Of a stretch of 38,874 nucleotides of DNA, positions 1-35,274 are shown piece after piece (the first letter of the stretch is position 1; each line of letters opens with the position of its first letter). The stretch comes from Candidatus Daviesbacteria bacterium RIFCSPLOWO2_01_FULL_39_23 (GTDB lineage Bacteria; Patescibacteriota; Microgenomatia; Daviesbacterales; UBA10151): positions 357,449 through 396,322 of the forward strand of contig MFDN01000001.1 of assembly GCA_001776935.1 (NCBI GenBank), written 5' to 3'. Below the pieces are notes generated by a model. That model worked only from the letters and a program-made list of their open reading frames with translations, ran no database searches and was not told where the DNA came from. The position numbers and the translations under genes are program-made.

Positions 1-610
1 CCACGGATGAAATTATAACCGTATCTTTTTTGCCTGAATTGCCAAGCTGGTTGGCCAGAATTTCGGCATCTTTTATATTCAGGCGGCTGCTCATAAGCAG
101 GGGTACAACTTTTGCATCCGGCAGAAAATATTTAATAAAAGGCATCAGGGCAGACAAGGCCTGATCCTGCGGCAAAACATCCTCATCTATTTTAACAAGG
201 TTTAACTCCTGAAGCCTGTTTAAGGTCATCTTATCCGGCTTGACCTTCCCGAAAGGAGTATCCCAGTCGTAAAGCGAGCTTAGGACCTTAAAATTTCCCT
301 TTTCAAAGTGGTTGGGGCCAAGCAGGATAATGGAATCCGGTTTTTGAAAGGCAAGTCTTTTGAAAAAGTCAGCTATGATAAAGCTTGCAAAAAGATCGTG
401 CGGGACAACGCCTCCTGCGGCGCGAAAACCAAACCCTTCTAAATTTTTAGTTTCTGAAACGGCATCATAAAAAGTTTTTTCTTCAAAAAAGAGGGGAGTG
501 TGAGAATTTTCAGGTTTTACACTTCCGGAGTTTTTGTTGATTTGTCCCCAGGCAATTAAAATAAGAAAAAAGATAAAAGGCAGAAGAAAAAGGAATTTCT
601 TAATTGTCAT
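1..610 (-). CDS. MEMO-like / AmmeMemoRadiSam system protein B family protein, C-terminus off window edge
   Basis: Reverse-strand reading frame from ATG at 610: MTIKKFLFLLPFIFFLILIAWGQINKN...GFRAAGGVVPHDLFASFIIADFFKRLAFQKPDSIILLGPNHFEKGNFKVLSS...; N-terminal hydrophobic anchor, then MEMO-like VPHDLFAS and ILLGPNH motifs. Start overlaps the A2M stop by 11 nt. Absent from ORF track because it runs off the edge. Confidence 0.75.
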   Translation of the reverse strand, partial: MTIKKFLFLLPFIFFLILIAWGQINKNSGSVKPENSHTPLFFEEKTFYDAVSETKNLEGFGFRAAGGVVPHDLFASFIIADFFKRLAFQKPDSIILLGPNHFEKGNFKVLSSLYDWDTPFGKVKPDKMTLNRLQELNLVKIDEDVLPQDQALSALMPFIKYFLPDAKVVPLLMSSRLNIKDAEILANQLGNSGKKDTVIISSV

Positions 611-3600
611 TTGGAGTTTGCGGAGGGGTTTGTTTTTTTCTGATCACCCGGATGATAACCATGAAAATTACTACCGTAAGCACTATTAATATTACTGCTG
701 CTGCAAGTATTTGTTTTTGTCCTATGATGCCAACTTCCGGGGCGCGTTCTGCTTTTTTGGCAATATTTATTTTTTGTACATTTGAACTGCCGCTTATTTC
801 CGGGGCATACATCAGTGAGGCAACCCCCGGAGGCGTTAAGAACGTGCCCTCGCTGACTACCCTGGCCCGGTAGGTGTAGGTTTTTTCTCCGGCCGGGATT
901 TGATACAAAGACAGGATAATCCCGTTTTCCGTAATTTCCCTTTCAGTGACTTGGTTTGAATTAAAAGACATATTGCCGTACTGCTCGTTTTCAAATGATT
1001 CATTTATGGGTATCATGCCGGACGGCAGTTCGTCTTGTATGACTGCATAATTTTCTTCTGTTTTTAAGCCCCCGACAGTAATTTTAACCAGCGCAGTATC
1101 TCCGACCCCGAGGCCAAATTGAGGATTTTTCTCGTTTACGTACTCTCTCTTCACTGTTAAGCCGTTATTTTCTGCCTTGGAATTTTTGTCGGTCCGCAGT
1201 TCATTTACTGTTAAGGTTGAGTAAATTTGGCCGCTGCCGTTTTTGGTTACGGCAATTTTTGAGCCGGATGATTTTATGTTTTCGGCCGGGATATTGATAT
1301 CTTTGATGGACTGTTTAGGGTCGGAAACCGTGCCGCCTGCAATTTGCTTACCGTCAATTGTTACGGCGTAGGAATAAGCAGGAGTTTGTTCCTCAGTACT
1401 TTTGGCAAATTCTGTCAGGGCCCGCAAAACCTGTGCAGTGGCAAAGGTGTTGGACCAGTAGTCTGATTGCCGGTTTCTGGTCAGGAAGCGGGCGCCTTTT
1501 GCAGCCAATTCCCTGTCCCCGTTTGTCAAAAGTATTGCCCTGATTGCAAGGGCTGTTGAAGCATCCCGGGAACCGAAGTTTATTTTTGTCCCGGCTTCCC
1601 AAAAAAGCGCATTGCCTTGTTCGCGGGCCATCAGGATAAGGGCATTTAGTCCGTTTGTTTGAGGGTTGGTGTCTCCGTTTAAGTAATTTGACATCACCAG
1701 CAAAGACAAAAGGTCCGGTGTCAGGCCGGGGAAAACAGGAAGCAGTTTGTTTGTACTGGTTTGTCCCAGCAGCGCCAGGCCGTAATTTTTCGAAATTATT
1801 TCTTCATTGCTAAACTTTTTTTCCTGACTTGAGTCGTAGTATTTATCCAGCAGCAGGTATGATTTTGCCTGATTTAAGATATAAGCATTAACTTTTGTGC
1901 CTGATTTTTGTGCCAGCAGCAAATATTCTAAAACATATGCGCTGACAAAAGGATTGGAATTGTCTCGGCCCCACCAAGTCCAGCCGCCATCTGATTGTTG
2001 CTGGCTTTCCAGTCTTTTAACCCCTTTTTGCAGGATATCGTCCGTATTTTTATCTTTTAAGGCATCGCCATAAAGATCCGGGTTTAATTTTGCAATAATT
2101 GCAGGCACTATGGTGCTGGTTGTTTGTTCGGTGCAGCCGTATGGATAGTTAATGAGGTATTTCATGGCCGAAGGCAGGGAACCGGTTATGGCAGGGGATA
2201 ATGACAGGGTGATTTGGGATTTTTCTCTATGGCTGTCAGGGGCAAGTTTTACGTCAAAAGTTTTTGGCCCTTCTGCCGCATAGCTTAGTTTGCGTTCAAA
2301 GCCGAAGTTTTTCACCGGTATTTGCAGGGTAACTATATCAGCCAGATTTTTATCGGCTTTTGATCTTGCGCCAAAGGTAAGTTTTGCTGCCGGGTTTTCT
2401 GTGTCCGGTTTCACCTTCCAGAAAAATTCCTGCATGCTGTTTGATTTTATTTGAACATTTTGTTTTCTTTCATCCCCTACGTTTCCGGAGTCAAATTTTA
2501 AATCTATATCCAGGTTTTGGGCATTTTCCGTAAAATTTTGCACCAGGGCAGACAACACAATTTCATCCCCCACCCTTAAGATATTTGGCAGGATAGGGCG
2601 GATAACAAGGTCCTTATTTACCGTGATTTCAGCAGTGGTTTGTCCGACTTTTGTATCGGTTGTGGCGGCTACGGCTGCAATGGTCCAGGTAGTCAAATTA
2701 TCAGGCAGCTTAAAGCTTACCTTGGCAAGGCCGTTTTCATCCGTATGTACGGAAGGATTCCAGTATGCAGTATCTTTAAAGGCATTTCTGTCTATGCCTT
2801 TTTCGTTGTGCACCCACAGTCCGTCGGCAAAATAGGTGTGGTATTTTTCTATTTCCAGATTGTAGACTTTGAACTTTCCGCTTTGCCATTCAATTGAATT
2901 AATTTTTACTTCCCCGCCGGATTGATCTGTTAAGGTGTCGCCTGTTTGCATGCTGCCGGCCTCTTTCCAGCTATTATTGATCCGTAGAATGTGATTTGCG
3001 GTCACTTTTAAGTGAGAATTTAGTATCAGGTAGCCGGGTGCTTCTGCGGAATGAGTGCCTAAAACTTTGGCCTTGATTAATTTTTGGTCTTTTTCATCCC
3101 TTGTTAAAATATAATCTCCTTTTTTTACATCTTCAATATTTTTGATTTTATCCTCTGCCATCAATATTTTTGTGCCTTTGGCAAAGCATCCGCCCCCTTC
3201 TGCCATACGGACCAGGATGCCTTCCAAAGAATGTGCCTCCTCAGTTGTGTTGTACCGTTCATTCCAGAAGGTTGTGAAAATATCTCCCAGTTTGTTGTCT
3301 GAAAGTTCAAATATCGCTTTATCAACAGCCCACAAAGCTACATCTGAAGAAACAGGGTTTCCTTTTGCATCTTTTGTGGAAATATCTACTGTCACGGTTT
3401 CTCCAGGGCCGAAATTTAAATTGTTCGGAGTCAAATTTACTGCGATTTTTTTACTTTCCGGAGAAACAATAATATTGGTTTGACTGGAATTCAAAGCCCC
3501 GGCGGAAAAACTTTGCGCTTGAGCAAAAATATTGGGCATATCCGAATTTTGAAGCGGTACTTCCAAAGAACCGCTTGCGCCGTTTAAGCGGATAATTTGG

Positions 3601-5675
3601 AATCTTGAAACCCTGCCTCTTTCCAAAGAAAAAAATATATCGCGGTCAGGAATTTGTGAGAAGATTTTAAGCTGAACTGTTTCGCCGGGCGCGTATTTTT
3701 GTTTGTCGGTTGAAATGGTAAGTTCTTCTTCCGCGTCACTATTATAAAACGGTTGGTTTTCGGCGGAAACGTATGAGTAGAATGTTTTTGATATGGTATT
3801 TCCCCGGCTGTCGCTGCCCTGGGCTGTGATGGCATATGAGCCGATTTTTTGCGGAGTGAAGTTGAATACGGCGTCTCCTTTGGCATCTGTTTTTGCATTA
3901 AGATCCGGCAGATCTGTTATTTCTTCTTTGTATGTGGGGTATTTTTTATCCGGTTCCTGATGTTTAACCCAAATTGACAGCTTCACTTTGGCAGTTAAGT
4001 TTATGTTTGTTAGCTTTGCCCCGCTTTTATTTGCAACCAGGGAAACCGGCAAAGACAGGGGAGTATTGACCATTGTGCCGTATGAGTCATCCTTGCGGTA
4101 AATTCCGTATTCGCCGGCATAAACCAATATATTTTTTTTGGCAAAAGCCGGGGTTTGCGCACCGGAGTCAACCTGCGCCTCAATGGAAAATACCTGTGTT
4201 TTTCCCTGATTGAAAGTCATCCTGGTGCCCAGTTCAATTTCTGCTTCCCCGCTTTTATTTAATGTTGCAGTACCTTCTGAAGCTTTGTTGTTTCCGCCCC
4301 AGTAGGCATATCGGTAATTATTTTCATTAGAAAAAGCCCGGCGGTCAGACAAATAATGATAGTCTGAAAAATCAGAAGAATAGACAGTATATTTAACTTT
4401 CTGATCCATTAAAGGCTGGCCGGAAAAGTAGGTGCCGGTTATTTTAAAAGATGTCTTATCCGAAGCAATAAGTTCATTTTTGGGAGTGGTGATATCAATG
4501 GAAAATTCCGGTTTTTTAAAATATTCCACATCAAAAGAAATGGAGTTTGAGGAGTATTCGCTGCTCCAGTAGTTTTGCTTTTTTTGTCCGCCCGACAGGT
4601 CGACAACCAGCCCATAATAGCCGGTTTTGGCACTTTCGGGTATTTTGTATTCACCGTTGATTGTGCCCTCCGGCGAGACCGGGTAAGTTTTTTCAAAAAT
4701 CGTATCTTCATCGTTGTAGCCGTTTCTGATTTTAACCAAAGCCTCGCCAGGGGGAATACTGTAGCGGGCATCGTCATCATCCCTTAAAACGGTTTTAAAA
4801 TATACGGTATCACCCGGTTTATAAAGCGGGCGGTCGACAAAAATGAAATATCTTGTTAATTTTTCTTTCGGCAAAAACTTTTCATAAGAATAGCCTGTGT
4901 TTAAGTACTTTAGATTTAACGGGATAATAGTTTTCTCATCATTTTGAGAAAACAAGCCAATATCTGCCTCAGCCACTAAGGTTGTTTTTGCGATCCCTTC
5001 GGCATTAAAAGAAGCAGTCTGCAGTTGTTTGCGGCCATCCTGCAGGTTTAATATTTTAACAGTGCCTTCAGAAATGCTTCTTTTAGTTTTAAAATTTTGG
5101 CCCCAGAAGATAAATTCATTATCCCCTTCTTTGGATAAAACCCCGATATTTGACCTTAAAACAAAAGCATCTGCTAAAGTTGAGCCGGTTTTTACTTTTA
5201 AATACCAGATGCCTTTTTCCCCGAGCGGCAGGGAGATTTTTGTTTCCCGACCGGACCCGGTATTTATCGGACGGTTTACAGTTGTGATAAATTGCAGTTT
5301 TGAGACATCCGGACTTTTCTTGGTTTGCTTTCCTTCTTTGTCGTGCGTTAGATAGTCAAGTAGATGATTTTCATCAGCTTCGTACAGGGAAACTTCTGCA
5401 TCCCCTGCCAGGTTATAGCCGCCAATTATTACAGCCGGTTCGTCTGTTGAGGCCAGGGATATCAGGCCGCCGCTTGCATAACCATTATCACTGCCTGAGA
5501 TATAAATTTGCGGGCTCTGATAGGATCTTCCCAATACTTCTGAAGCAGGGGTTTGTACAGATTGGGCAACTTTGGGTGGTTCATTTACTTTTAGAGATTT
5601 TAGGGATGAGGAGCCGCTGTAAAACCCAAGAATAAAAAGAAAAAGAACTAAAAGCAATCTTTTGATTTTGCTCAT
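600..5675 (-). CDS. Membrane-anchored bacterial alpha-2-macroglobulin family protein with inserted Hint domain
   Basis: 1691 aa; N-terminal signal/TM, MG-type repeats, A2M domain (FKDTAYWNPSVHTDENG...LPDNLTTWTIAAVA), thioester motif PYGCTEQT, C-terminal TM (ILAAAVILIVLTVVIFMVIIRVIRKK). Confidence 0.93.
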   Translation of the reverse strand: MSKIKRLLLVLFLFILGFYSGSSSLKSLKVNEPPKVAQSVQTPASEVLGRSYQSPQIYISGSDNGYASGGLISLASTDEPAVIIGGYNLAGDAEVSLYEADENHLLDYLTHDKEGKQTKKSPDVSKLQFITTVNRPINTGSGRETKISLPLGEKGIWYLKVKTGSTLADAFVLRSNIGVLSKEGDNEFIFWGQNFKTKRSISEGTVKILNLQDGRKQLQTASFNAEGIAKTTLVAEADIGLFSQNDEKTIIPLNLKYLNTGYSYEKFLPKEKLTRYFIFVDRPLYKPGDTVYFKTVLRDDDDARYSIPPGEALVKIRNGYNDEDTIFEKTYPVSPEGTINGEYKIPESAKTGYYGLVVDLSGGQKKQNYWSSEYSSNSISFDVEYFKKPEFSIDITTPKNELIASDKTSFKITGTYFSGQPLMDQKVKYTVYSSDFSDYHYLSDRRAFSNENNYRYAYWGGNNKASEGTATLNKSGEAEIELGTRMTFNQGKTQVFSIEAQVDSGAQTPAFAKKNILVYAGEYGIYRKDDSYGTMVNTPLSLPVSLVANKSGAKLTNINLTAKVKLSIWVKHQEPDKKYPTYKEEITDLPDLNAKTDAKGDAVFNFTPQKIGSYAITAQGSDSRGNTISKTFYSYVSAENQPFYNSDAEEELTISTDKQKYAPGETVQLKIFSQIPDRDIFFSLERGRVSRFQIIRLNGASGSLEVPLQNSDMPNIFAQAQSFSAGALNSSQTNIIVSPESKKIAVNLTPNNLNFGPGETVTVDISTKDAKGNPVSSDVALWAVDKAIFELSDNKLGDIFTTFWNERYNTTEEAHSLEGILVRMAEGGGCFAKGTKILMAEDKIKNIEDVKKGDYILTRDEKDQKLIKAKVLGTHSAEAPGYLILNSHLKVTANHILRINNSWKEAGSMQTGDTLTDQSGGEVKINSIEWQSGKFKVYNLEIEKYHTYFADGLWVHNEKGIDRNAFKDTAYWNPSVHTDENGLAKVSFKLPDNLTTWTIAAVAATTDTKVGQTTAEITVNKDLVIRPILPNILRVGDEIVLSALVQNFTENAQNLDIDLKFDSGNVGDERKQNVQIKSNSMQEFFWKVKPDTENPAAKLTFGARSKADKNLADIVTLQIPVKNFGFERKLSYAAEGPKTFDVKLAPDSHREKSQITLSLSPAITGSLPSAMKYLINYPYGCTEQTTSTIVPAIIAKLNPDLYGDALKDKNTDDILQKGVKRLESQQQSDGGWTWWGRDNSNPFVSAYVLEYLLLAQKSGTKVNAYILNQAKSYLLLDKYYDSSQEKKFSNEEIISKNYGLALLGQTSTNKLLPVFPGLTPDLLSLLVMSNYLNGDTNPQTNGLNALILMAREQGNALFWEAGTKINFGSRDASTALAIRAILLTNGDRELAAKGARFLTRNRQSDYWSNTFATAQVLRALTEFAKSTEEQTPAYSYAVTIDGKQIAGGTVSDPKQSIKDINIPAENIKSSGSKIAVTKNGSGQIYSTLTVNELRTDKNSKAENNGLTVKREYVNEKNPQFGLGVGDTALVKITVGGLKTEENYAVIQDELPSGMIPINESFENEQYGNMSFNSNQVTEREITENGIILSLYQIPAGEKTYTYRARVVSEGTFLTPPGVASLMYAPEISGSSNVQKINIAKKAERAPEVGIIGQKQILAAAVILIVLTVVIFMVIIRVIRKKQTPPQTPNDN
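2124..2135 (-). other. A2M thioester motif Cys-Thr-Glu-Gln
   Basis: Revcomp reads TGC ACC GAA CAA within NYPYGCTEQTTS. Confidence 0.93.
2805..3188 (-). other. Hint / bacterial intein-like domain (128 aa) embedded in the A2M CDS
   Basis: Begins CFAKGTKILMAEDKIKNIEDVKKGDYIL, internal LKVTANHILRI (Hint block B-like TxxH), ends YHTYFADGLWVHN; followed by Glu. No endonuclease insert. Confidence 0.9.
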
Positions 5676-5717: not shown

Positions 5718-6374
5718 TCAAATGAATTTAAGCAATTGGAGTAGTTTTGCCAAAATCCAGCCCGCAATAAAACCTCCTATGTGGGCAAAGAAGGCTACTC
5801 CTCCAAACGAGGAGGTGTCAGCCATAATTGAGGCGCTGCCTGCAAATATTTGAGTAAAAAACCAGAAAAATAAAATGTAGAAGGCGGACACTTCGATAAC
5901 AGTAAAAAATCCAAAAATTGGCAATAAGGTTTTTACTTTATGATGGGGGTATATGGCCATGTATGCACCTAAAACCCCTGCTATGGCACCTGAGGCTCCA
6001 AGCATGGGGATGGAAGAACCCGGAATAAAAATATACTGGGCTAATCCACCTATAATTCCTGCAAAAAGATAAAAAAGGGGGAAAAGGAAAAATCCAAAGC
6101 TTTCTTCCACATTGTCTCCAAAAATCCATAAAAACCACATATTGGAAATAATGTGAATAAAACCGCCATGCAGAAATTGACTGGAGATAAAGGGGATTAA
6201 GGTATTTATGTTGGAAAAATCCACCAAAGCGGGAATTAGGGCAAATTTCCTGATAAAAAGATCTGGATTTGGAGCAGTCAGTTCAAGGAAAAACACCCAT
6301 ATATTAATCAAAAGAATGATAATGACCCATAAAGGGAAAGAACCGGAGGTTTTGGTATCCGAAAGAGGGATCAT
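5718..6374 (-). CDS. Rhomboid family intramembrane serine protease
   Basis: Multi-TM; GASGAIAG catalytic Ser motif, HGGFIHIISNMWFLWIFG, and FFAHIGGFIAG catalytic His motif. Confidence 0.95.
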   Translation of the reverse strand: MIPLSDTKTSGSFPLWVIIILLINIWVFFLELTAPNPDLFIRKFALIPALVDFSNINTLIPFISSQFLHGGFIHIISNMWFLWIFGDNVEESFGFFLFPLFYLFAGIIGGLAQYIFIPGSSIPMLGASGAIAGVLGAYMAIYPHHKVKTLLPIFGFFTVIEVSAFYILFFWFFTQIFAGSASIMADTSSFGGVAFFAHIGGFIAGWILAKLLQLLKFI

Positions 6375-31119: not shown

Positions 31120-31176
31120 ATGGTAGCATAAAACTCCTTGTCTTGACATAAGATACTGCTTAGCTTTAGTGTGAAT

Positions 31177-34100
31177 ATGATGGAACAAGAAACTGCTGGA
31201 TTCCAATTTAATAAAACATCGATTATTTCTTTAATTGCTTTTGTAATTTTGCTAATCTCAATACCTATTGGTACTTATTTAATTCAGAAAACTCAAATAT
31301 TCAAATCCAGAGCAGCAGATAACCCTAAGAAACTAACTGATTCTCTAAAAGGTAAAGCTGATTTAGGAATCAAATTAATGAGCCAGTATGATTTAAACAA
31401 TGACGGAAGAATTTCGCTTGAAGAATTGAAACCCATAATTAATGCTCAGGTGTCTTCTTCTAGGAACAAACCTAAAAATTTTTATGAAGCCAAAGGTTTT
31501 ATTATAGAATTCAAGAGTGTTCCTCTGAGCTCTTTTAAAAAACAAGCAAAATTACGGACTTTTGCAGAATACAAACAAGCATTACAAAAAGAGCACCAGG
31601 AAGCAAAAAAGGATATTCTTTCCAGGTTAGGAAAGGAATCATTTTCTTCTAACTCAAAAACAACTGCTGAACGGTCTAAAACTTCAGTAACGCTGCTGGG
31701 AGAATACTTAACTTTGTTTAACGGTATAGCGCTTGATATTACAAATGAAGAATCAGAGAGAGTTAAAAAATCGCCTTATGTGAAAAAGATATATCCTAAC
31801 AATAAAGCCCAAACATACTTAAACGATTCCGTCCCTTTGATAAATGCTCCCCAAGTTTGGGAAATCTCAGACTCACAAGGAAATAAACTTACAGGTAAAA
31901 ATATCAAAGTAGGTGTTATTGATACTGGCATAGATTATACGCATCAAGATTTAGGTAGTTGCAGTACGCAGGCTTTTCTGTCAAACCAATGCAGTAAAGT
32001 TGCAGGAGGATATGATTTTATCAACAATGATAATGATCCAATTGATGACAACGGCCATGGAACACATGTAGCTGCAACTATCGGAGGGAACGGTTTGACT
32101 CAAAATGGCATTGTATTAAAAGGAGTAGCTCCCGAGGTTACCTTATTTGCATACAAAGTACTTGGGGGAAATGGAAGTGGTTATTTCTCCACTATACTCA
32201 GCGGTATAGAAAGAGTCTCGGATCCAAATCAGGATGGCGATTTATCTGATCATTTGGATATTATAAATCTCAGTTTGGGTGGATCAGGAGACCCGACTGA
32301 CCCATTGTCACAAGCAATAGACAGAATTTCTGAAATTGGGGTTTTACCGGTTGTAGCAGCGGGCAATAGTGGTCCAAATGAGGCTACGATAATATCTCCC
32401 GGTAATGCCCGTAAAGCCCTGACGGTTGGAGCAAGTGACAAAAGTAACCGGCTTGCTTATTTCAGTAGCCGAGGACCTGTTTTAACAATCCCGGGCCAAG
32501 AATTTGATTTAGGTAAGCCTGATATAGTCGCTCCCGGTGTCGAAATCTGCGCTGCCGAATTTGGGAATTGGAACAGCTCAAAAAGGTGTGCTGACAATAA
32601 ACACATTGCCATTTCAGGAACCAGTATGGCAACGCCTCATGTTGCTGGTTTGGCTGCCCTGATCAAGCAAAAAAATCCCACCTGGATGCCTGATGATATT
32701 AAAAGTGTCATTACTATCTCTTCGGGCAGCATCGGAGAAAATTATCTAAATGAAGGAAGAGGTAGAATAAACGCTTTGAGTGCTGTTGAGACTTCTACTA
32801 TTATTAATCCAACAAGTCTCAGTTTTGGGATGGTCAATAAAACAAGCGGTTCTTGGACAGAAACAAAAACAATTACTATTAAAAATGCCGGTAACATTTC
32901 CGCTAGTTATTCTCTTAATACGGGCAGTATTCCTAATGGCTCTTCCATTATCTTGAGTGAAAATAATTTCCAAATTCTTCCCAATAGTCAAAAAACTATC
33001 CAAGTGAGCTTAACTGCGGATAATAATATTCTAAGCAACGGGGTTTATAGCGGGGTAATTAATGTTTTGCAGTCGGGTAAAACCTACCGTATACCGGTTT
33101 TGTTCTTTAAAAGCAGTATGCAGATAATTCCCGAGCCATCGATTACCAACAACTATCTTCATATTAAAGTGGTAACTCCATATCTGGATTTAATTGATCC
33201 GCCGCAACTTACAATATTCTCATCTACCGGTAATCCAATAAGTGTTCCGATGTATCCTTATTCTAGTTTCTTTGGATCAAATAAAACAACTTGGTTTTCA
33301 GAACTTATACAAGTAAACAAAAGCACTGGCGTTCGTACCATAAACGCGAGTACTAACGAATTAGCCAATTATAACGCCAGCGCGCAATTTACTGTTGATT
33401 TAGATCCCCCCGTATTTAATATTACTCCTACCGTTAATCAGAATGATCTTAATTTACAGATCACGGCGAACGAAAGCATCAGTCCTGACTATGCAAAAAC
33501 ACTTATAGATAACAGCGGATATTATTCTCATTGGATGCCCCGTATTCTTGCAGATGGTCAAAACGTATATATTCTTTACCAGTCTTTTACCGATGACACT
33601 TCTAGTGATAAAGTTGATTTTATTAAAAGTTCAGATGGGGGTTATACCTGGGGTAGACCAAAAACACTACGTGTGTTTACCGGATCATTTTTCAATTTTC
33701 CACCGATCTCAATTGCTAAATTGAGTGGCGTCTTGTATGCAGTTTTAGATAACACTATAATTTCCAGCAGAGATGAAGGCGAAACATGGAGTAATCCGAT
33801 TAATTTCACAAACGAACCTTTTCCTTATGATACTAATGTTGTAGATCTTAAAGCTTCGGAGGGCAAACTGCATCTTGTATACACGACGACAGATGCTGTG
33901 GGATTCCGACCTCGTTTTATCAATTATATGAGTAGTAATGACGGAGTAAATTGGACTCAAGCAGTGCGGATAGCAAGTAGCGATGGACCATCTGGCGACA
34001 TGACTGCTTCTTTGGCTGTTGATAAAGGCAAATTGAGGGTGGTGTATACATATAATCACAAAGTCTATTTTGCTATCCCTCAGAGCGAGCGACTTGAGCG

Positions 34101-35274
34101 TTTTGGCTGGGAATCAAAGGTGATTGCGGAAAGTTTTAATGGAGCATTTTATCCTACAATTATTTCACGAGGGAATGATATTTTTATAGTATGGGGTGCA
34201 AATTGGGATATAGATTTTGCCAGAAGTAGCGATGGAGGTAAAACATGGGCTATAACCCGAGATCTCACAGGCACAAATCGTTTTGATATGCAGCCAAATT
34301 TGGCGTATGCGGGAGGTAAGCTTTATATCTCTTGGACTAGAGACATTTTTAATGGCACTTTCTTGAAAGTTAGTGGCGATGGCGGAAAGTCCTGGGATAG
34401 AGAAATAGCACTTGATAATCAAATGACGTTTTTGTCAACAATATATGGAGACAAAGATACAATTCATTTCAGCTGGCCAACAGCTCCTAGTATAGGTTAT
34501 CCTTTTGCTCTCGTGTATGCCAACAACAACGACTTGGTGGCGAAGGTGACATATAATGGGACCGAAGAAATTTTACAAACCCGTAAATTAACTAATTACT
34601 GGAGCACTCAAACTCCTTTGAGAGGAAACGGAATTTATGATATTGAGGTACTCGGGCGTGATATTGCCGGAAACGTCGGAAGAACTACAGCTTCCTTTAC
34701 TTATAATACTTCTGCCAGCCCGACACCAAGACCAACAATTACTTCGCCGAGTCCAACTTTAACTCCTACTCCTACCCTTACTCCTGCACCATCACCCATA
34801 TCTTCTGTGAAACGCATTTTTGTAACGAGTACAACTTACCAAGGAAACCTGGGTGGTTTATCAGGAGCTGATAATAAATGCCAGCAGATTGCTGAATCAG
34901 CAAGTCTGGGTGGCATATGGAAGGCTTGGTTATCAACTCCTGGCACATCTGCTTTGTCCCGCATTGTGCATGGGAATGACTACTACAAATTAGTAAACGG
35001 TACTGTGATTGCAAATAATTGGAATGATTTAACTGACGGAAGTTTACTTGCGCCAATTAATGTTACCGAAAGCGGAGTAAATCTTGATACAACTGTTTGG
35101 ACAAATACTCTTCCCGATGGCTACCAAGAACCATTTAGCTGTGGTGATTGGACTTCTGTTTCATCAGGTATTAACGGTGTAATTGGAAAGTCTTCAGAAA
35201 CCTCAGCTTATTGGTCTGATTTTGATCGTGCTTATTGTTCGAGCTCTAATTCATTGTATTGTTTTGAACAATAA
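31177..35274 (+). CDS. Secreted/anchored S8 subtilisin-like protease with Asp-box propeller-like insert and C-terminal DUF1554-like domain
   Basis: N-terminal TM; EF-hand-like YDLNNDGRISLEEL; S8 triad motifs VGVIDTGIDYTHQDL, NGHGTHVAATIGG, GTSMATPHVAGLAALI; repeated Asp boxes (SSDGGYTWG, SRDEGETWS, SNDGVNWT, SSDGGKTWA, SGDGGKSWD); PT-rich linker; C-terminal RIFVTSTTYQGNLGGLSGADNKCQQIAESASLGGIWKAWLS...CFEQ. Confidence 0.92.
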   Translation: MMEQETAGFQFNKTSIISLIAFVILLISIPIGTYLIQKTQIFKSRAADNPKKLTDSLKGKADLGIKLMSQYDLNNDGRISLEELKPIINAQVSSSRNKPKNFYEAKGFIIEFKSVPLSSFKKQAKLRTFAEYKQALQKEHQEAKKDILSRLGKESFSSNSKTTAERSKTSVTLLGEYLTLFNGIALDITNEESERVKKSPYVKKIYPNNKAQTYLNDSVPLINAPQVWEISDSQGNKLTGKNIKVGVIDTGIDYTHQDLGSCSTQAFLSNQCSKVAGGYDFINNDNDPIDDNGHGTHVAATIGGNGLTQNGIVLKGVAPEVTLFAYKVLGGNGSGYFSTILSGIERVSDPNQDGDLSDHLDIINLSLGGSGDPTDPLSQAIDRISEIGVLPVVAAGNSGPNEATIISPGNARKALTVGASDKSNRLAYFSSRGPVLTIPGQEFDLGKPDIVAPGVEICAAEFGNWNSSKRCADNKHIAISGTSMATPHVAGLAALIKQKNPTWMPDDIKSVITISSGSIGENYLNEGRGRINALSAVETSTIINPTSLSFGMVNKTSGSWTETKTITIKNAGNISASYSLNTGSIPNGSSIILSENNFQILPNSQKTIQVSLTADNNILSNGVYSGVINVLQSGKTYRIPVLFFKSSMQIIPEPSITNNYLHIKVVTPYLDLIDPPQLTIFSSTGNPISVPMYPYSSFFGSNKTTWFSELIQVNKSTGVRTINASTNELANYNASAQFTVDLDPPVFNITPTVNQNDLNLQITANESISPDYAKTLIDNSGYYSHWMPRILADGQNVYILYQSFTDDTSSDKVDFIKSSDGGYTWGRPKTLRVFTGSFFNFPPISIAKLSGVLYAVLDNTIISSRDEGETWSNPINFTNEPFPYDTNVVDLKASEGKLHLVYTTTDAVGFRPRFINYMSSNDGVNWTQAVRIASSDGPSGDMTASLAVDKGKLRVVYTYNHKVYFAIPQSERLERFGWESKVIAESFNGAFYPTIISRGNDIFIVWGANWDIDFARSSDGGKTWAITRDLTGTNRFDMQPNLAYAGGKLYISWTRDIFNGTFLKVSGDGGKSWDREIALDNQMTFLSTIYGDKDTIHFSWPTAPSIGYPFALVYANNNDLVAKVTYNGTEEILQTRKLTNYWSTQTPLRGNGIYDIEVLGRDIAGNVGRTTASFTYNTSASPTPRPTITSPSPTLTPTPTLTPAPSPISSVKRIFVTSTTYQGNLGGLSGADNKCQQIAESASLGGIWKAWLSTPGTSALSRIVHGNDYYKLVNGTVIANNWNDLTDGSLLAPINVTESGVNLDTTVWTNTLPDGYQEPFSCGDWTSVSSGINGVIGKSSETSAYWSDFDRAYCSSSNSLYCFEQ

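Follow-up and report, generated by a model that had tools for sequence, protein, structure and literature searches.

It takes an outside protease to spring alpha-2-macroglobulins (A2Ms) and complement proteins; why, then, should one of them carry at the spring site itself a self-cutting domain with perfectly conserved chemistry? The question is raised by a gene for a 1691-residue A2M in a stretch of 38,874 nucleotides (the window) from Candidatus Daviesbacteria bacterium RIFCSPLOWO2_01_FULL_39_23 (contig MFDN01000001.1, positions 357,449 to 396,322), whose bait loop contains a 128-residue Hint domain. The computation established what this domain is, where it is inserted, that the catalytic residues at both of its ends are conserved, that it is under purifying selection and that no nucleophile follows it at position +1. 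The A2M-Hint architecture is real, conserved and apparently undescribed; both modules are known, and what is new is their fixed combination at the trigger site. We assign a probability of about 50% to the reading that this is a secreted, membrane-anchored A2M with an active mini-Hint in its bait loop, resembling type A bacterial intein-like (BIL) domains, which would be excised, the loop being rejoined in part of the molecules and the rest left as two chains. The features of the gene, in window coordinates, are the following.

600..5675, minus strand: A2M-family gene, 1691 aa, single open reading frame (ORF), with Pfam MG2, A2M_BRD, PT-HINT, A2M, TED and bMG10
3303..3722, minus strand: A2M_BRD, bait-region domain (macroglobulin domains MG5-MG6), aa 652-791; PF07703, 58.8 bits
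3189..3218, minus strand: N-side bait linker ILVRMAEGGG, aa 820-829, predicted disordered (AlphaFold2 predicted local distance difference test, pLDDT, <50; model residues 179-188); Gly-rich in all relatives
2805..3188, minus strand: mini-Hint, type A BIL-like, aa 830-957; PF07591 over cut-off, model pLDDT 90.9, Foldseek matches BIL2 (6y75) and CthBIL (2lwy)
3186..3188, minus strand: Hint Cys1 (C830), invariant in 76/76; predicted N-S acyl shift with Gly829
2991..3002, minus strand: block B motif T-x-x-H (T892, H895), invariant in 76/76
2805..2810, minus strand: terminal His956-Asn957 (block G), invariant in 76/76; predicted Asn cyclisation
2778..2804, minus strand: C-side bait linker EKGIDRNAF, aa 958-966, pLDDT <50; non-nucleophilic E958 at +1, conserved Lys at +2 (K959), Gly at +3
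2502..2771, minus strand: A2M domain (MG7), aa 969-1058; PF00207, 73.9 bits
1848..2192, minus strand: thioester domain (TED), aa 1162-1276; PF07678
2124..2135, minus strand: thioester motif CTEQ (C1181-Q1184), aligned with CLEQ of E. coli A2M
798..1163, minus strand: bMG10 domain, aa 1505-1626; PF17973
651..707, minus strand: C-terminal transmembrane anchor, aa about 1657-1675; hydrophobic 19-mer, mean Kyte-Doolittle 3.38

The host protein belongs to the A2M and thioester-protein family, as judged from its MG and A2M, bait-region and thioester domains, its CxEQ motif and a Foldseek search with the AlphaFold2 model (mean pLDDT 84.9), which returned A2Ms (the best including 4u48, 5a42 and 4rtd) and complement C5. 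All six Pfam families scored over cut-off, with PT-HINT between A2M_BRD and A2M. The N-terminus is hydrophobic, and the chain runs from this signal or anchor segment through MG domains, Hint and thioester domain to the C-terminal membrane anchor. An initial annotation, made from the sequence alone, had described the A2M as otherwise intact, including CTEQ (aa 1181-1184), and the single ORF and Pfam scores bear this out. The protein contains only two cysteines, Cys1 of the Hint (C830) and that of the thioester (C1181). Bacterial A2Ms such as E. coli YfhM/ECAM and Salmonella SaA2M have the same MG domains, bait-region domain, CUB/TED with CxEQ and C-terminal MG domain; the E. coli bait loop, however, has no Hint, and in the window A2M the anchor is C-terminal and a Memo-like gene overlaps the A2M gene. 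E. coli A2M is periplasmic, anchored in the inner membrane and often encoded in an operon with pbp1C (PMC4498604).

Translation of the minus strand at 2805-3188 is free of stops and reads CFAKGTKILM...GLWVHN, so that the block outlined in the initial annotation (128 aa, Cys first, His-Asn last) proved exact to the nucleotide. PT-HINT matched aa 842-958 with 49.3 bits against a cut-off of 27.7, the NCBIfam model intein_Cterm matched aa 936-957, and no other PT-HINT copy is present in the 1.28-Mb genome. Modelled alone, the Hint reached a pLDDT of 90.9; its best Foldseek matches, ahead of inteins and Hedgehog, were the BILs of Tetrahymena (BIL2, 6y75) and C. thermocellum (2lwy), with a TM-score of about 0.85. 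Fold, Cys1 and the block B T-x-x-H motif place it in the Hint superfamily. Type A BILs are Hints that end in His-Asn without a +1 nucleophile, while type B BILs lack intein block G (PMC4031507, PMC7765530). The His-Asn end is found in 76/76 sequences and +1 is never Cys, Ser or Thr; judged by sequence, the window Hint is a type A BIL in the published classification (PMC4031507). The initial annotation had correctly read +1 as Glu, with no nucleophile there, but its label of type B had to be given up, block G being present in all members and matched by intein_Cterm.

Four comparisons delimit the domain further. Class 1 inteins have a common fold and Cys1/His-Asn chemistry, and were rejected on the +1 residue (D, E, Q, N, A or K in all 72 full-gene cases); unlike them, the window Hint sits in a variable loop of a secreted protein and holds no homing endonuclease, its 128 residues leaving no insert between blocks B and F. 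The Hog domain of Hedgehog, which has no Asn cyclisation and is followed by a sterol-recognition region, was rejected since HN is invariant and MG7 comes directly after the Hint. Pretoxin HINT (PF07591) of polymorphic toxins is the best Pfam family, but there the Hint precedes a C-terminal toxin whereas here it is internal to an A2M with no toxin attached, and this candidate was rejected as well. Type A BILs (2lwy; BIL2 of Tetrahymena BUBL1, 6y75) share the Hint fold, Cys1, T-x-x-H, His-Asn and the missing +1 nucleophile; the known ones occupy variable regions of diverse proteins or the space separating ubiquitin-like domains, in contrast to the constant bait-loop site in an A2M host found here.

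The insertion site was mapped with a profile of 25 relatives aligned to E. coli A2M (4rtd) and complement C3. Against E. coli A2M the profile aligned over MG5-MG6, MG7-TED and the C-terminal domains; the alignment ended at chain residue 901 of 4rtd and restarted at 953, so that the Hint with its linkers corresponds to 902-952. The E. coli bait is reported as disordered from Arg923 to Leu942 (PMC4498604), a numbering possibly about 20 off the chain index, and falls inside or at the edge of 902-952 regardless. In C3 the profile resumed at residue 15 of the C3b alpha' chain, equivalent to the C-side linker of the Hint and adjoining the C3a/C3b cut; by this alignment the Hint and the C3 anaphylatoxin insert occupy the same MG6 loop, within a few residues. 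Complement C3, C4 and C5 likewise have a whole domain inserted there. The anaphylatoxin is helical, unrelated to the Hint and excised by proteases rather than by itself. In the AlphaFold2 model, the Hint and the MG domains formed separate units joined by two linkers with pLDDT <50, in agreement with the bait-region position first proposed.

Related genomes yielded A2Ms both with and without the insert, as the initial annotation had suggested seeking, and in the latter the Gly run is uninterrupted at the insertion point. The loop of Hint-less L046 reads AEGGGGGDGEGISDRDHF, against AEGGG-Hint-EKGIDRNAF in the window; that of Hint-less L047 reads KGGSGGGGGGGNDTSR, against KGGSGGG-Hint-QKGGNDTSR in L041. 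These two Hint-less relatives come from Woesebacteria and Gottesmanbacteria. Without the Hint the loop has 60 residues (quartiles 59-63), compared with 68 (64-71) in Hint-less A2Ms, and near relatives have loops of equal length (71 in L041 and L106, 71 in L047 and L159). Because the Hint-removed loop matches that of Hint-less relatives in length, the Hint was added to the Gly-rich linker and not swapped for it: the site given in the initial annotation stands, replacement of the linker does not. Gly-Gly precedes the Hint at -2,-1 in nearly all members.

The full A2M-Hint architecture was found in 14 of the 142 genomes nearest the window (its own included) and in 20/384 genomes sampled across the phylum, and a GTDB-wide scan gave about 65 loci, nearly all from Patescibacteria or without a taxon label. 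One Hint-A2M among them (L121) lies on a contig labelled WOR-1, through transfer outside Patescibacteria or mis-binning. When 76 distinct A2M-Hint sequences were aligned, the Hint always stood at the bait-loop site, and Cys1, Phe2, T-x-x-H, the block F Asn and the terminal His-Asn were unvarying (76/76); chance occurrence was rejected on these grounds. The related-locus scan used a VHN[QED]K pattern, which biases its +1 and HN statistics, and an unbiased subset was therefore counted apart: Cys1 and His-Asn were kept in 31/31 sequences found without an HN-based pattern. The +1 residue was D, Q, E, N, A or K, and a Lys stood within +1 to +3 in 72/72 full-gene cases, whereas Hint-less A2Ms do not conserve a Lys at this point. 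Among the 25 phylum-sample genomes with PT-HINT over the curated cut-off, 20 have it in an A2M bait loop. The ratio of nonsynonymous to synonymous substitution (dN/dS) in the Hint equalled that of its flanks (e.g. 0.058 vs 0.065 and 0.083 vs 0.105; 0.06-0.25 where estimable), and the Hint is under strong purifying selection. With a mean pairwise identity of 0.44, against 0.34 for MG7 and 0.22 for TED, it exceeded every A2M domain tested.

Counted by alignment among 73 Hint-A2Ms, the thioester CxEQ is kept in 28 and lost in 45, the Hint being intact throughout. A simple link between Hint and thioester was therefore rejected, and the Hint does not serve a covalent trap alone. Many thioester-less Hint-A2Ms (L113-L146, L193-L199) share a GDRxDQ motif at the CxEQ place of TED, a recurrence that gives the impression of a new conserved function having taken the thioester's place. 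When the Hint was left out in building the A2M tree, its presence and absence required about 10 changes on that tree, against 37 in shuffles, and Hint-less A2Ms were nested among Hint-bearing ones. Identities of the Hint correlated with those of A2M domains at 0.31-0.37, compared with 0.73-0.80 among A2M domains; quartet agreement was 0.64 vs 0.78, and an approximately unbiased (AU) test of the Hint history rejected the control MG7 too. Lateral exchange of the Hint is suspected from these comparisons. One genome (G402) has two tandem Hint-less A2M genes (L183) and a Hint-A2M on another contig (L193).

How would such a protein work? Under the excision reading, Sec export of an unfolded chain would delay folding of the Hint until after secretion. 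Once the protein is exported and folded, Cys830 would convert the Gly829 peptide bond into a thioester, and cyclisation of Asn957 would cut the chain before Glu958, releasing the Hint from the bait loop. In part of the molecules the +1 alpha-amine or the side chain of the nearly invariant Lys +2 would attack the Gly-Gly-Gly thioester and rejoin the loop, yielding a Hint-free A2M resembling the Hint-less relatives; in the others the loop would remain open, and the two-chain A2M would equal the sprung form by the known A2M mechanism. That the Hint reacts, where and when it does so, and that rejoining is a main outcome, we infer from the following. Type A BILs form the Cys1 thioester and cyclise Asn, after which the freed amine may attack the thioester to ligate the flanks (PMC4031507); in Tetrahymena BIL2 the bond formed is an isopeptide one, to the side chain of a lysine (PMC8616854). 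In view of these reactions, cleavage without ligation, which the initial annotation gave as the expected chemistry, was too strong a statement, cleavage itself being in keeping with the class. Conservation of both catalytic ends argues for removal of the whole Hint, because a single cut would not need both. Partial rejoining is favoured because of the Lys near +1, the natural length of the loop left after Hint removal and the thioester kept in 28/73; nicking of all molecules would make that thioester useless, since bait cleavage springs A2Ms (shown for E. coli A2M, PMC4498604).

Several points weigh against excision with rejoining. Type A BILs can splice but cleavage dominates (PMC4031507), and according to PMC7765530 they cannot ligate. 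About 8/10 of the non-A2M BIL-like Hints of the phylum also have Lys at +1 or +2; Lys near +1 may thus be a general BIL feature (L203, L207, L213, L215, L216, L220, L227), and its purpose may lie elsewhere than in ligation. A pure splicing element would moreover be expected at many sites, so that its location in the A2M bait loop in 20/25 genomes points to a function there; so narrow a choice of site suggests involvement in the trap itself. A tentative but serious alternative is that the built-in autocatalytic Hint supplements the protease-cut bait and controls the trap, either springing it or passing its Gly-Gly-Gly thioester to a lysine (Lys +2 or one on a target), which would give two thioesters per protein. 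If true, this would make the protein a counterpart of complement C3 that operates itself, in bacteria believed to live on other cells.

Taken as a self-springing two-chain trap, the protein would be cut by its Hint at either or both ends and left unjoined, whether constitutively or upon a signal (thiol, metal, amine or contact), in place of the protease trigger; the A2M would change shape and expose its thioester, where present, like C3 with its anaphylatoxin domain excised. The coincidence of the insertion site with the E. coli bait stretch (4rtd 902-952) and its position next to the C3a/C3b cut speak for this, as do the springing of E. coli A2M by bait cutting (PMC4498604), the predominance of cleavage in type A BILs (PMC4031507) and the near confinement of the phylum's Hints to this site. 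Constitutive nicking, however, would waste the thioester in 28/73 and the other 45/73 hold a Hint without one; no sensor or trigger was identified, and both ends are invariant although one cut would be enough. We consider this version rather unlikely. A conjugating device, in which the Gly-Gly-Gly thioester on Cys1 would be passed to an amine of another molecule and the N-terminal A2M half attached to its target, appears improbable. The acceptor would be a lysine on a protease or on the surface of a partner cell, in parallel with the attachment of a ubiquitin-like domain by BIL2, the nearest fold, which joins its N-flank to Lys (PMC8616854). The Gly-Gly at -2,-1 would suit such a transfer but stems from the Gly-rich linker already present in Hint-less A2Ms, and no acceptor is known. 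Highly improbable is an inert passenger, folded in the bait loop and unreactive, acting as a spacer or a bulky bait: the loop tolerates inserts and the linkers on either side, which contain Lys and Arg, remain disordered in the AlphaFold2 model, but catalytic residues conserved in 76/76 and strong purifying selection contradict it. Wrong fusion of a Hint gene to an A2M gene during assembly, which the initial annotation had named as an outcome that would refute it, was refuted by the one open frame and by the recurrence of these junctions in dozens of assemblies made independently in many projects, and its probability is negligible.

Like the initial annotation, which knew of no A2M of this design, we found no paper joining an A2M with a Hint, BIL or intein in the literature searched, which was thin on subscription journals, and an earlier description is possible. 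Patescibacterial A2Ms have been proposed as a defence against host proteases, in papers whose consulted passages do not mention a Hint (PMC8080830, PMC9793634). The hosts of A2M-Hint proteins belong to a phylum of mostly uncultured, presumably host-dependent bacteria. If active, the Hint would provide a genetically encoded opening or rejoining of the bait loop without a protease and a bacterial parallel to the C3 domain insert, and the purpose of BIL domains would become directly testable in one host protein. The architecture also bears on whether a Lys near the splice junction can be a substitute nucleophile in BILs.

Three other genes of the window were considered.

2..610, minus strand: Memo-like gene (PF01875), truncated at the window edge, with a hydrophobic N-terminal segment; overlaps the A2M 3' end
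5718-6374, minus strand: gene for a rhomboid protease, immediately upstream of the A2M gene
31171-35274, plus strand: 1367-aa subtilase with I9 propeptide, BNR repeats and DUF1554

In many relatives (L033, L088, L117 and L141 among them) a Memo-like gene, likewise with a hydrophobic N-terminal segment, overlaps or abuts the A2M 3' end, at 32/66 Hint-bearing loci and also at 9/44 Hint-less ones. Memo as a Hint-specific partner was thereby not supported; judging by gene order, there is a conserved A2M-Memo operon in many Patescibacteria. The rhomboid was rejected as a partner, being nearby at only one other locus (L088). Outside A2Ms, a 428-aa ORF (L216) was found to contain two tandem Hints joined by VHNKGGGGCF, in a Gottesmanbacteria genome (G114) whose A2M, L047, is Hint-less.
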